9,921 bases of DNA from DATKZS01 sp035527835 [NCBI: bacterium] (lineage in GTDB: Bacteria > RBG-13-61-14): contig DATKZS010000018.1 of NCBI GenBank assembly GCA_035527835.1, positions 1 through 9,921 on the forward strand, read 5' to 3'. A program made the translations under genes and the position numbers. The notes under the pieces are model-generated. The model saw nothing but the letters and a program-made list of their open reading frames with translations, did no database searches and was not told the origin of the DNA. Shown in pieces: positions 1-9,921 of the stretch. Numbering within the stretch: the first letter of the stretch is position 1; the number at the start of each line of letters is the position of its first letter.

Positions 1-136
1 CGTCGAGTCCGTGTTTTGCCATTGGCTTCCTTCAGATTCCGCCTCGCGGCGGACACCCTTGCCTAGGCTGGCGGTTCCGCTCACCGCGGCCCGCAGAGGA
101 CTTCCACCTCCAACAGGTGCGACATGCCTGGCACAC
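1..136 (-). mobile_element. Group II intron, 5' end (domain I), truncated by the window edge
   Basis: Read on the minus strand, the segment begins with GTGTGCCAGGCATG, which fits the GUGYG 5' boundary of group II introns. It continues with stretches I recognise from bacterial group II intron RNAs: GGAGGTGGAAGTCCTC, then CCTAGGCAAGGGTGTCC, a GCCGCGAGGCGG hairpin, CTGAAGGAAGCC and a purine-rich GGCAAAACACGG. These belong to the large structured domain I of a self-splicing ribozyme retroelement. The reverse transcriptase and the 3' end would lie to the left of base 1 and cannot be seen. The first base of the intron is placed at 136 from the GTGTG motif. The subclass is not decided. Recognition is from memory of conserved intron sequence and was not computed. 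Confidence 0.75.
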
Positions 137-2442: not shown

Positions 2443-2518
<76 letters not shown>

Positions 2519-4286: not shown

Positions 4287-6191
4287 ATGGGATTCGGGAC
4301 TGGACTCGCGGCATTGGTGTTAATAGCCGGGTTAGCTATTACTATCTCGCTACTTATATTTTTCGCCACGCGCTACAAGCGCTGTCCCTCGGACATGATC
4401 CTGGTCATCTACGGCCGGACCAAGGAAGGAGAGGCGGCGAAGTGCATCCACGGCGGCGGCACTCTGGTCATCCCCTTGCTCCAGGACTTCGCCTACATGA
4501 GCCTCACCCCCATGACCATCAACATCCCCTTGAAGAGCGCTCTGTCGCTGCAGAACATCCGGATTGACGTGCCCTCGACCTTTACCGTGGGCATCTCGAC
4601 CAATCCCAAGATCATGACGGTCGCCGCCGAGCGCCTCTTGAACCTGCCGCCGCGCGAGATCGAGAACATGGTCAAGGAGATCATCTTCGGCCAGCTCCGC
4701 CTCACCGTGGCCTCGCTGACCATCGAGCAGATCAACCAGGACCGCGAGTCGTTCCTGACGGCCATCCGGCAGAACGTGGAGCCGGAGCTGAACAAGGTCG
4801 GGCTCTACCTCATCAACGTCAATATCACCGACATCACCGACGAGTCCGACTACATCGAGAGCATCGGCAAGAAGGCCGCGTCCGAGGCCATCAACCAGGC
4901 CAAGGTTGACGTGGCCGAGCAGGAGAAGAAGGGCGCCATCGGCCAGTCCGAGGCCACGCGGGAAAAGGAGATCCGGGTCGCCGAGAACGTGGCCTCGGCG
5001 GAAAAGGGCAAGAAGAAGGCCGAGGCCGACCGCCGCATCTACGTGCAACAGCAGGAGACGCAGGCCGCCGTGGGCGAGGCCGAGGCCCACCGCGAAAAGG
5101 AGATCAAGGTCGCCGTCAACGTGGCCGAGTCGGACAAGGGCCAGAAGCAGGCCGAGGCCGACCGCCGCGTCTACGTCCAGGGACAGGAGGCCGACGCGGT
5201 CAAGGGCGAGAACCTGGCCAAGGCCGACATCGCCGAGGCCGAGGCCCAGCTCGCCCAGAAACAGGCCGAGGCCAACCGCAAGGGCCAGGTGGCCTGGCGC
5301 GAGGCCGAGGTCGAAATTCAGAAAGCGCAGGCCAAGGCCGAGATGGAAAAACTGACCGCCGCCGAGGTCGTCCGCCAGGAGATCGAAAAGAGAAAGGTCG
5401 AGATCGCGGCCGAGGCCGAGGCCGAAAAAACCAGGCGCGAGGCCAAGGGCCAGGCCGACGCCATCTTCATGAAATACGAGGCCGAGGCCAACGGCCTCAG
5501 AAAACTCCTCGACTCCAAGTCCGCGGGTTACGAGGGCCTGGTGAAAAGCTGCGGCGGAGACGCCAAGGCCGCCGCCACCTTCCTCCTCGTCGAAAAACTC
5601 GAGGCCATGGTCAACATGCAGGTCGAGGCCATCAAGAACCTGAAAATTGACAAGGTCACCGTCTGGGACTCCGGCGGAGCAAATGGGGCGTCATCCACCG
5701 CAAATTTTTTCGCGAGCCTCATCAAGAGCCTGCCCCCGCTCCATGACGTCGCCAAAATGGCCGGGCTCGAACTCCCCGATTACCTGGGACAGATCTCAGG
5801 CACCGGCGAGCCTACGGAAAAAAAAAGCCCGGTAGCGCCTAAGGACCCCAAAGGAGGGGGCGGCCAAGCGCCGTCATCCAGCGCGCCGCCCTCTCCGCCC
5901 AAGTCCGCGCCCCCCGCGTCCCGCCCCGGCGGCGCCCATAGCGCCGACCATCACCAGGCCGCGCCGGCCCCCGCCCCAGGCCACGCGCCCGACCATGCGC
6001 CCGGCCACGCCGCGGCCCAGCCGGCCCGCGGGCCCGAGCACCGCTCCGACGCCGGCTCATCCACCACGCCCCCGCCCTGGCTCGCCGCCGGCAGGGACCA
6101 GTATCAGCCCGGCGCACAAAAACCAGGCCCTAAAACCAAGCGGTCCTCCGCTGAAATCATCGAGCCGCCGCCGCTGGACCCGGAGAAATGA
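4287..6191 (+). CDS. floT: Flotillin (SPFH/band 7 family)
   Basis: Flotillins scaffold detergent-resistant membrane microdomains and assemble as oligomers. This protein has 634 residues, longer than the roughly 500 usual for bacterial flotillins. An N-terminal membrane helix (about 5-27) is followed by the SPFH domain (about 28-200), including TMNI-like strands and the typical EIENMVKEIIFGQLR segment (124-138). A long Ala/Glu/Lys/Arg coiled coil (about 200-400) carries the flotillin EA repeats and contains a 44-residue tandem duplication (217-260 and 261-304). A flotillin-type C-terminal region follows to about 500 (FLLVEKLEAMVNMQVEAIKN, 432-451). The last 130 residues form a Pro/Ala/Gly-rich, probably disordered tail with a His-rich part at 551-585. 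AAGGAGG (4272-4278) lies eight bases before the ATG, and the NfeD-like stop is 17 bases upstream, so the two are co-transcribed. The stop overlaps the next start by ATGA. Confidence 0.93.
   Translation: MGFGTGLAALVLIAGLAITISLLIFFATRYKRCPSDMILVIYGRTKEGEAAKCIHGGGTLVIPLLQDFAYMSLTPMTINIPLKSALSLQNIRIDVPSTFTVGISTNPKIMTVAAERLLNLPPREIENMVKEIIFGQLRLTVASLTIEQINQDRESFLTAIRQNVEPELNKVGLYLINVNITDITDESDYIESIGKKAASEAINQAKVDVAEQEKKGAIGQSEATREKEIRVAENVASAEKGKKKAEADRRIYVQQQETQAAVGEAEAHREKEIKVAVNVAESDKGQKQAEADRRVYVQGQEADAVKGENLAKADIAEAEAQLAQKQAEANRKGQVAWREAEVEIQKAQAKAEMEKLTAAEVVRQEIEKRKVEIAAEAEAEKTRREAKGQADAIFMKYEAEANGLRKLLDSKSAGYEGLVKSCGGDAKAAATFLLVEKLEAMVNMQVEAIKNLKIDKVTVWDSGGANGASSTANFFASLIKSLPPLHDVAKMAGLELPDYLGQISGTGEPTEKKSPVAPKDPKGGGGQAPSSSAPPSPPKSAPPASRPGGAHSADHHQAAPAPAPGHAPDHAPGHAAAQPARGPEHRSDAGSSTTPPPWLAAGRDQYQPGAQKPGPKTKRSSAEIIEPPPLDPEK
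4935..5198 (+). repeat. Tandem duplication of 44 codons in the flotillin coiled coil
   Basis: Residues 217-260 and 261-304 align without gaps. Shared blocks include REKEI, KAEADRR/QAEADRR and YVQ, at the same spacing in both copies. The copies are clearly related but diverged, so the duplication is old or maintained by selection on the coiled-coil register. Confidence 0.8.
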
Positions 6192-8406: not shown

Positions 8407-8410
<4 letters not shown>

Positions 8411-9375
8411 GGCGCGGGGTCCGCTCCCAGCGCCTGCTTCAAGGTTTGCAGGTTTTTACGCATGGTTTTTTCGTAGTAGTCCGGCTCCATGTTCCCGGTG
8501 GCCACGGGGTCGAGCTCATAGACCTTGACCCCTGTTTCGGCGGACAGGACCTGGGCCAGGCGGGGGGAGTACTGGGGCTCGGAGAAGATGGCGGCGACGC
8601 GGGCGCTCCTGATCTTGGCGGCGAGGCGGGCGAGCTCTCCGGCGGCGGGCTCCTGTCCGGGGACGCTCTCGATCACGCCCGCGACGGTGAGCCCGGTGTC
8701 GCGGGCGAGGTAATCAAAGGAGTTATGAAAGGTGACGATTTTTTTATCGGGGGCGGCGGCGGCCGCGGCTTTGAAGTCGGCGGCGAGGGCGGTGAGCCTG
8801 GCGGCGTAGTCGCGGGCGTTCTTTTGGTAGTCGGCGGCGCCGGCGGGATCAACGTCGGCCAGGGCGCCGGCGATCCTATCCACCATCCTGGCGGCCTGCC
8901 CGGGGCTGGCGAAGGCGTGCGGGTTGATGCCCAGGCGGAAGCGCTCGGTGGCGGAATCCGACTGGTTCCAGAAGCCCTGGTCATCCGAGGAAATGGGGGT
9001 CACGCCGTCGGCGGCCTCGACGATCCTGAGGCCCGGCCGCGCCTTCCTCACGGTGTCGGTGATGAACTCGTCGAGGTAGAGGCCGTTGGCGACGAAGAGG
9101 TCGGCGTTGGCGATCCTGGTCATGTCTCCGGGGGTGAGCTGATAGTCGTGCGGGCCCTGGTGGCCGGGGATGAGCACGTCCACGGCCACTCCGGGCCGAT
9201 TGCCCACGACGTTCCTGGTGAAGATCCAGACGGGCAGGAAGGTGCAGAGCACCTTGAGCTCGCCGGGCTTTTTCACGCCCTGGCCCCCGCCCGCCGGGTT
9301 TTTATTCCGGCAACCCATCGGGGCAACAAGCATGGCCGCGACGATGAGCGCCGCCAAGGTTTTCATCCTGAACAC
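8407..9375 (-). CDS. znuA: Zinc ABC transporter substrate-binding protein
   Basis: This cluster A-I (cluster 9) binding protein captures Zn2+ outside the inner membrane and delivers it to ZnuB. The protein has 322 residues. The signal peptide (about 1-21) ends in VAPMGC with Cys22 as the likely lipidated residue; Pro at -3 is unusual for a lipobox. Metal ligands are visible in family order: His76 (GPHDY), His153 (NPHA), His217 (TFHNSF) and Asp289 (ELDP), with Glu266 in SEPQ. A third histidine, where manganese binders have glutamate, favours zinc. The long His-rich loop of many ZnuA proteins is absent. The GTG at 9375 is chosen because an AGGGGAAAGGG purine tract lies just upstream. An in-frame ATG at 9366 is possible but less well spaced. 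It is the first gene of the znuACB operon. Confidence 0.94.
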
Positions 9376-9399
9376 GTGGACCCTTTCCCCTGAATGAAT

Positions 9400-9427
9400 A
9401 ACATAATGCCGGGACTGATAAATTCAA
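9400..9427 (-). promoter_or_regulatory. Candidate promoter of the znuACB operon
   Basis: On the minus strand TTGAAT (9427-9422) and TATGTT (9405-9400), each four of six matches, are 16 bases apart. Transcription would start near 9393, giving a leader of about 18 bases. I see no convincing Zur-type palindrome here, although zinc repression would be expected for such an operon. Confidence 0.35.
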
Positions 9428-9598
9428 GCGCGCCGCATGCTTACCGGACCGTGAACCGGGTTACATAGTCTCACCCTTCGGGCTTTTTTTCAAACCGGGG
9501 GAATTTCATGAAAACCGGGCGGTTATAATTTCGCGCGGACCCGGCACGGAGCTTGCTCTGAAAATATCGGGCTTGTCGCCGGGCGCGTAAGAGTTTAG
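9428..9598. other. Intergenic stretch with no recognised gene
   Basis: This segment between the znu promoter and the right-hand element contains no credible coding frame. CCCTTCGGG followed by CTTTTTTT (9473-9490) forms a very short hairpin with a T-tract on the plus strand, too weak to call a terminator. A TATAAT occurs at 9524-9529 without a matching -35. The bases after 9884 to the window end also show nothing recognisable. Confidence 0.4.
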
Positions 9599-9883
9599 GA
9601 TATAACGTCAGTGCTGTCCCAAATAAACGGACCGGAGAACCGCCAAGACGCCAAGAGCGCCAAGGATTATTTTTTAACACGATTTTAAGAGGGCTGGGGT
9701 GCGAATGTTTCTGGCTTGGCGCTCCCGTCGGCCGGTTCGCCAAGCCGGTTGGGGCCAACGCTCCGGAGCTGTTCTTTTTTGGGCCGCAAAGAAACATCAT
9801 GATTTACTTGGCGACCCTTGACGCTCTTGGCGTCTTGGCGGTTTTCTTAGCGCCTATTTTGGACAAGAGTGATATAACGTCAG
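9599..9883. mobile_element. Non-coding element with inverted CGCCAAG-repeat arms and 13-bp flanking direct repeat (MITE-like)
   Basis: GATATAACGTCAG occurs at 9599-9611 and 9871-9883 as an exact 13-base direct repeat. Between them the two ends are inverted copies. The outer part (TGTCCCAAATA at 9615-9625 against TGTCCAAAATA on the opposite strand at 9855-9865) is imperfect. The inner arms 9638-9659 and 9822-9843 match over 22 bases and extend with one mismatch to 28. Each inner arm consists of CGCCAAG heptamers: starts 9641, 9649 and 9658 on the left, and inverted copies at 9834-9840, 9826-9832, 9817-9823 (variant) and 9807-9813 on the right. A further hairpin (9713-9721 with 9738-9746) lies inside. 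No transposase or credible protein is encoded. The layout is that of a small transposable element with a target-site duplication, mobilised in trans. Confidence 0.65.
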
Positions 9884-9921
9884 AAATGATGGAACGCGCG
9901 GAACACAATGGAAGCCGCTTC

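Follow-up and report, generated by a model that had tools for sequence, protein, structure and literature searches.

Positions 9599 to 9883 of the window (the whole stretch of 9,921 nucleotides analyzed here, from contig DATKZS010000018.1 of DATKZS01 sp035527835) very probably represent a non-autonomous element, with arms only, that belongs to a widespread group of very small mobile elements; the full-length members of this group enclose a GxxExxY gene and would supply its nuclease in trans. Gene-bearing and gene-less forms share the same arms, and the family's hairpins come and go at gene junctions in related genomes, in one case (L329) with a target duplication that leaves two overlapping genes intact. 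The 13-bp direct repeat around the window element would then be the target duplication left by its insertion.

The element consists of an exact direct repeat enclosing 259 nt (9612 to 9870), within which lie two inverted arms of 31 nt each that are 94% complementary and 150 nt apart. Its parts and its nearest identified neighbor are as follows.

8407 to 9375, minus strand: znuA-like gene (PF01297, Pfam), a neighbor that begins 224 nt away from the left repeat
9599 to 9611, no strand: left copy of the 13-bp direct repeat GATATAACGTCAG, putative target-site duplication (exact match)
9612 to 9634, no strand: left outer segment TGTCCCAAATA, marginally inverted to the right outer segment (shuffle test)
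9635 to 9665, plus strand: left arm GAGAACCGCCAAGACGCCAAGAGCGCCAAGG, with three CGCCAAG units at 9641, 9649 and 9658 (inverted-repeat match)
9666 to 9815, no strand: 150-nt filler with an inner hairpin (9713 to 9746) and a CTTGGCG at 9807 (six-frame HMM)
9816 to 9846, minus strand: right arm, with units CTTGACG at 9817, CTTGGCG at 9826 and CTTGGCG at 9834 (94% complementary)
9847 to 9870, no strand: right outer segment TATTTTGGACA (shuffle test)
9871 to 9883, no strand: right copy of the 13-bp direct repeat (exact match), with a minus-strand TGA at 9880 to 9882

The 8- and 9-nt spacing of the left-arm units is mirrored in the right arm, where the innermost of the three units, CTTGACG (read by eye), carries one substitution; the additional CTTGGCG at 9807 is outside that arm. 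The 13-mer copies sit 23 and 24 nt outside the arms. This is the structure that the original prediction had described, namely, an exact 13-base repeat flanking about 259 bases, CGCCAAG arms spaced 8 and 9 on both sides and no encoded transposase, and it was recovered here in all of these respects. No transposase ORF is present, and the one listed ORF over the element (9471 to 9800, minus strand) has no Pfam match. A six-frame hmmsearch of positions 9301 to 9921 detected no GxxExxY or S23 remnant, with no GxxExxY match and a best S23 match at an E value of 0.99. When positions 9590 to 9895 were folded as single-stranded DNA, the free energy was −68.5 kcal/mol, compared with −41.7 kcal/mol for shuffled sequences (standard deviation, 3.7; z, −7.25), and 0 of 100 shuffles folded equally well. 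The inner hairpin of the filler has a 9-bp stem (9713 to 9721 with 9738 to 9746, read from the sequence).

On the minus strand, 13 open codons run from the right edge of the window to the TGA inside the right 13-mer (read by hand), which weakly suggests that the element may lie at a junction of two minus-strand genes. No close relative of the locus was found in the genome contigs searched, where the best ZnuA matches were 28 to 36% identical, and the malic enzyme of the window reached at most 45% identity in 387 genomes (phylum of the Limisphaerales locus). An Rfam scan of the window returned only a tRNA gene and a piece of a group II intron, and the element is not in an rRNA gene. The tRNA gene (2446 to 2518, minus strand; 66.8 bits) is directly upstream of the malic enzyme gene. 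The intron piece (positions 1 to 53, minus strand; RF02001, E value of 4.2e−6) is a group II intron domain at the left edge of the window, so a group II intron may adjoin it.

The same arms are found in other genomes. The 17-mer ACCGCCAAGACGCCAAG occurs in 22 of the 387 genomes of the phylum sample, with up to 143 copies per genome, and its reversed control pattern had no match in the 387 genomes. Copy numbers were 131 in G006 and 143 in G626, and one contig of the former (G006:C197, locus L013) carries a long head-to-tail array of CGCCAAG triple units with a period of ∼32, followed by inverted units. A census of 120 loci, in which repeats of one place were removed by sequence and units <60 nt from the start or <100 nt from the end of a locus were skipped before counting, yielded 127 units and, from these, 39 distinct inverted pairs. 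Of the 127 units, 72 had no partner or were cut, which indicates that single CGCCAAG units also spread or persist. Sixteen of the 39 pairs are arms-only, with spans of 51 to 166 nt; by the same measure, the window pair spans ∼205 nt. The HMM test was applied to the 21 pairs longer than 250 nt, and 4 of these hold a GxxExxY gene (near-constant span, 454 to 469 nt) and none holds S23. Most of the 19 pairs that exceed 200 nt and do not hold GxxExxY come from two loci, the tandem array of L013 (11 pairs) and L317 (3 pairs). The left arm of the window element is identical to the arms of the four GxxExxY-bearing elements at 26 to 28 of 28 to 29 bases. We describe the window element as a gene-less derivative because it contains no GxxExxY remnant and because this form is seen in 16 of the 39 pairs.

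Further copies with different flanks had been anticipated by the original prediction, and the 39 distinct pairs do have other flanks. The 13-mer, which would have been expected in other copies if it were part of the element, was absent from the 388 loci compared. Exact matches to the arm in viral contigs were confined to two loci with single units only and no bounded element at the match. These are CGCCAAG triple units at 4680 to 4703 of L003 and 4002 to 4025 of L004, neither with a partner arm and both apparently in coding sequence. In the literature search, the matches listed for CGCCAAG were unrelated, and no mention was found of six longer repeat strings.

The enclosed gene could not be seen from the window by itself and did not feature in the original prediction. 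Between CGCCAAG arms at L007, the gene scores 146.5 bits against TIGR04256 (cutoff, 35) and 145.6 bits against PF13366, i.e., GxxExxY, an uncharacterized family of PD-(D/E)XK nucleases. The occurrence of the same arms around a GxxExxY gene in other genomes points to an autonomous partner of the window element, and on this association a GxxExxY nuclease acting in trans probably mobilized the element. An alignment of 92 of 100 GxxExxY proteins (seven were cut and L249 was left out for an internal stop) has columns of E (100%), D (100%), E (99%) and K (99%), with a following Q (100%). From the family name and the PD-(D/E)XK fold, we take these E, D, ExK and Q columns to be catalytic. PF13366 is present in 49 of the 110 genomes sampled from one phylum and in 31 of the 200 sampled from a second. 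GxxExxY was found in seven plasmid records and in no phage records, and nothing was confirmed in viral contigs by two single-protein scans with narrow patterns. A sequence search of solved structures gave no real homologue (best E value, 0.28). No published role for GxxExxY, PF13366 or TIGR04256 was found in the literature searched, in which subscription journals and bioRxiv were thinly covered; in the part of PMC8934634 that was available, GxxExxY appears as an annotation only.

Inverted arms are the rule around GxxExxY genes and are not tied to CGCCAAG. When the two 200-nt stretches flanking the gene were compared (inverted similarity score of ≥15), arms were present at 43 of 65 GxxExxY loci in the first phylum (displaced controls, 1 of 130; cross pairs, 50 of 4,160) and at 20 of 28 loci in the second (displaced, 0 of 56; cross pairs, 43 of 756). 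Genes of PF05635/S23 have inverted heptamer arms at 38 of 67 loci (displaced, 0 of 134; cross pairs, 23 of 4,422). The loci were the best-scoring ones among the matches listed rather than a random sample, and the 65, 67 and 28 loci used were those of 70, 70 and 30 that were not cut by contig ends. Arm sequences vary between loci (ACCACAGAG, ACCACGAAA, ACCGCAGAG, ATCCTGT and others) but agree across the two sides of one locus. Since only 1 of the 93 GxxExxY loci in these best-scoring samples, and none of the 67 S23 loci, had CGCCAAG arms on both sides, the arm type of the window element is one of many. Inverted heptamer arrays around PF05635/S23 genes can be seen at L065 to L094 and L185 to L224.

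Evidence for insertion comes from sites that are filled in one genome and empty in relatives. The closest analogue of the window element is L329, an arms-only CGCCAAG element of 97 nt with 15-nt outer spacers and a 10-bp direct repeat, TCACCATGGC, on both sides. Nine relatives were read at this site. In four of them (G656, G457, G528 and G662; 76 to 84% identical), the flanks of L329 are fused over exactly one TCACCATGGC; there, a gene ending in ...RHTPW* overlaps a gene starting with MVTT... by ATGGTGA. The stop of the first gene and the start of the second lie in different copies of the 10-mer in L329, and the duplication thereby leaves whole both of these genes, which Pfam identifies as von Willebrand type A. 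The other five relatives are filled or unaligned at the site: there is a CGCCAAG hairpin in G655, a different hairpin (by eye) in each of G657 and G660, a 186-nt unaligned stretch in G663 and, in G659 (L392), a 420-nt insert with heptamer-like inverted ends by eye and no GxxExxY or S23 by HMM, possibly carrying a third cargo gene. At the family level, the 10-bp repeat and the four single-copy empty sites thus support the original prediction, in which the mobile element was non-autonomous and its flanking repeat a likely target-site duplication.

Two gene-bearing elements give similar comparisons. L150 lies at the trpE/trpG junction (anthranilate synthase I and class I amidotransferase by Pfam), where its repeat, GAAAAAAATG, ends in the ATG of trpG. 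Among 12 of its 29 relatives that were read, six (76 to 83% identical) have short junctions of 3 to 17 nt that resemble one GAAAAAAATG copy without being letter-identical to it, four have other inserts of 74 to 148 nt, and two align within the element. At L170, the repeat CTCTGATT holds the gatA stop, and of 14 places read, from at least 12 genomes, three have short junctions (G392, G390 and G394, with 9, 9 and 32 nt; 83 to 91% identical), four retain the element in full, six have other inserts of 89 to 203 nt, and one is cut. Heptamer hairpins are present at L284 and L285, where G394 and G392 are empty.

Across the family, direct repeats at matched distances from the two arms (within 45 nt) are rare but exceed expectation. 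Of the 87 gene-bearing elements in the two families, 6 have symmetric repeats of ≥7 nt (1.08 expected), including L156, which is a tandem-repeat artifact; repeats of ≥10 nt flank 2 of 87 (0.05 expected), and 3 of 39 CGCCAAG pairs have repeats of ≥7 nt (0.50 expected). With the distance condition dropped, GxxExxY loci had no clear excess (≥8 nt in 3 of 48, compared with 41 of 960). Most copies have no matched flanking repeat, the length being below 7 nt in 36 of the 39 CGCCAAG pairs and in 81 of the 87 elements with a gene, and a target duplication was therefore rejected as the rule for every copy. Repeat lengths elsewhere are 7 to 11 nt, so that the 13 bp of the window element is longer, and only three repeats (8, 10 and 10) were traced to empty sites.

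Both gene-bearing and gene-less forms have settled in tiny gaps between neighboring bacterial genes. Taking the longest open frame as the neighbor, which makes the orientation and stop-distance counts approximate, the element gene is co-directional with both neighbors at 27 of 48 GxxExxY and 23 of 39 S23 loci and is fully antisense at 0 of 48 and 2 of 39, respectively, the remainder being mixed or undecided. For the second phylum, the counts are 16 of 22 co-directional and 0 fully antisense. A binomial value of 3e−13 for 2 antisense of 52 is inflated because several loci share a site. When upstream frames ending within ∼120 nt were searched, a co-directional upstream stop lay ≤15 nt from the arm in 24 of 32, 20 of 29 and 17 of 18 cases in the locus sets. 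At L106 and L125 (GatA) and L150 (TrpE), the frame of the upstream gene runs on into the hairpin arm, which therefore seems to encode the last residues of the protein.

The gatA-gatB junction was compared in 45 genomes: 50 of 51 gatB places were read (G104 was omitted), and 5 of the 50 had no gatA directly upstream. Nineteen junctions are empty (<30 nt), 8 hold a GxxExxY element, 2 hold an S23 element, 10 hold only a hairpin (with an inverted score higher than those of at least 199 of 200 shuffles), and 6 hold something else. All 10 gene-bearing elements are co-directional, and the gatA and gatB families were confirmed by Pfam in L040. Across L095 to L144, this single junction thus hosts GxxExxY, S23, gene-less hairpins or nothing in different relatives. 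One pair of genomes, 97% identical at the GatB N terminus, differs in the form present: G082 (L095) carries a GxxExxY element, and G237 (L096) carries only a hairpin, the arms of which are, by eye, of the same type. In the second phylum (L225 to L254), a TrpC-like start, by a simple motif, follows 10 of 22 arm-bearing GxxExxY loci; trpD and trpC were confirmed by Pfam for L226 only, and this context may be another hot spot or one old insertion with co-changing arms.

For the mechanism, our first choice is a DNA route. The two arms would pair into a hairpin or cruciform, and a GxxExxY nuclease encoded by a full-length element and acting in trans would recognize the paired arms. After cleavage, the arms would be joined into a staggered break between two genes, and gap filling would produce the direct repeat. 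An RNA route, which we favor less, would fit the co-direction with transcription, the variable repeat length and the reported resemblance of PF05635 to the DGR protein Avd (PMC10053308). Under that alternative, which we consider unlikely, the window element would be an IVS-like RNA element following the S23/Avd route, in which a reverse transcriptase supplied in trans would use the hairpin RNA as its template and return the sequence to DNA at transcribed junctions. Gene-bearing elements are co-directional with their neighbors in 50 of 87 cases and fully antisense in 2 of 87, and repeat lengths of 7, 8, 10, 11 and 13 are all represented. Nevertheless, the same orientation bias is expected if the element gene needs host transcription, and no reverse transcriptase was noticed on inspection of the elements read.

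Less credit is due to an ordinary MITE derived from an insertion sequence and moved by a DDE transposase, which would have the TGTCC[C/A]AAATA segments next to the 13-bp repeat as its true ends and the CGCCAAG arms as passengers or subterminal sites. A 13-bp target repeat fits some DDE transposases, which counts for this explanation, and the outer segments between repeat and arm do form an inverted match of 11 nt with one mismatch. This match is marginal, as 87 of 5,000 shuffles were equally good, and the arms-only hairpin of L329 inserted with its own 10-bp duplication without such outer ends. Further, no transposase-bearing partner was found among plasmids and phages, in which the whole element had no blastn match. 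A REP/BIME-like structural or regulatory hairpin (acting in mRNA stability, attenuation or zinc regulation of znuA), with the 13-mer as a paired protein-binding site, would suit the strong fold and the position upstream of znuA; it is very improbable. The 13-mer has no palindromic symmetry and does not occur in the 388 loci compared, and hairpins of different sequence replace one another or are missing at a given junction among relatives, which is turnover rather than conservation. Chance or a segmental duplication that placed the 13-mer around a CGCCAAG hairpin is hardly credible: flanking repeats below 7 nt are the norm for such pairs, but an exact 13-mer direct repeat arose anywhere in only 8 of 3,000 Markov-1 simulations of the 522-nt region, and the symmetric placement of the copies, 23 and 24 nt from the arms, makes chance even less likely.

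A broader proposal, which we advance tentatively and at somewhat less than even confidence, is that these elements constitute a new class of minimal mobile element. Its members would consist of one GxxExxY PD-(D/E)XK nuclease gene (or, in a sister group, a gene for an S23/Avd-like four-helix protein) between inverted arms of short units, would settle at operon stop/start junctions with a 7- to 13-bp duplication that keeps the genes whole, and would feed gene-less hairpins, perhaps via RNA. No published account of such elements (S23 with inverted or heptamer repeats, or junction-targeting miniature elements) was found among the papers listed in a literature search that covered subscription journals and bioRxiv thinly. 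GxxExxY proteins are common, and a link with the ends of small mobile elements assigns them a testable role. The link also offers a source for the abundant short hairpins of environmental genomes and a reason for their presence between operon genes, and the new class, if real, would explain many short repeats in such genomes. The claim can be checked directly at empty sites that hold a single copy of the target.

Several known systems resemble the window element in part; the comparisons below refer to the portions of the cited papers that were available. REPIN/RAYT systems are likewise gene-less pairs of inverted short repeats with proposed mobilization in trans by a separately encoded protein, but RAYT is an IS200-like tyrosine transposase, present in single copy beside repeat pairs (PMC3116915), and the linked gene found here is of the PD-(D/E)XK-type GxxExxY family and lies inside the same arms. 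The intervening sequence (IVS) of Coxiella rRNA, at 428 nt with one small ORF (S23p), 28-bp inverted ends and tandem heptamers next to S23p, is like the S23 elements in size and build but lies inside the 23S rRNA gene and is cut out by RNase III (PMC4990558). In contrast, the elements described here lie between protein genes, and that of the window has no S23 ORF and has CGCCAAG arms of the GxxExxY type; an rRNA IVS is ruled out for it by the Rfam scan and the six-frame S23 search. The intergenic TAACTGA heptamers of Beggiatoaceae, for which the authors suggested a role in translational regulation, differ in being nearly all direct arrays rather than inverted arms around a gene (PMC4679880). 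Prokaryotic MITEs are short and gene-less, have inverted ends and are moved in trans, and the window element has their structural hallmarks (inverted ends, direct repeats, no transposase ORF and a length of <600 bp); unlike it, MITEs are mobilized by transposase-bearing elements (PMC10969869), and the gene-bearing partner here belongs to a nuclease family. With GxxExxY-associated inverted-arm elements, the window element shares the two arms of about three 7- to 8-nt units and differs in having no enclosed GxxExxY gene.
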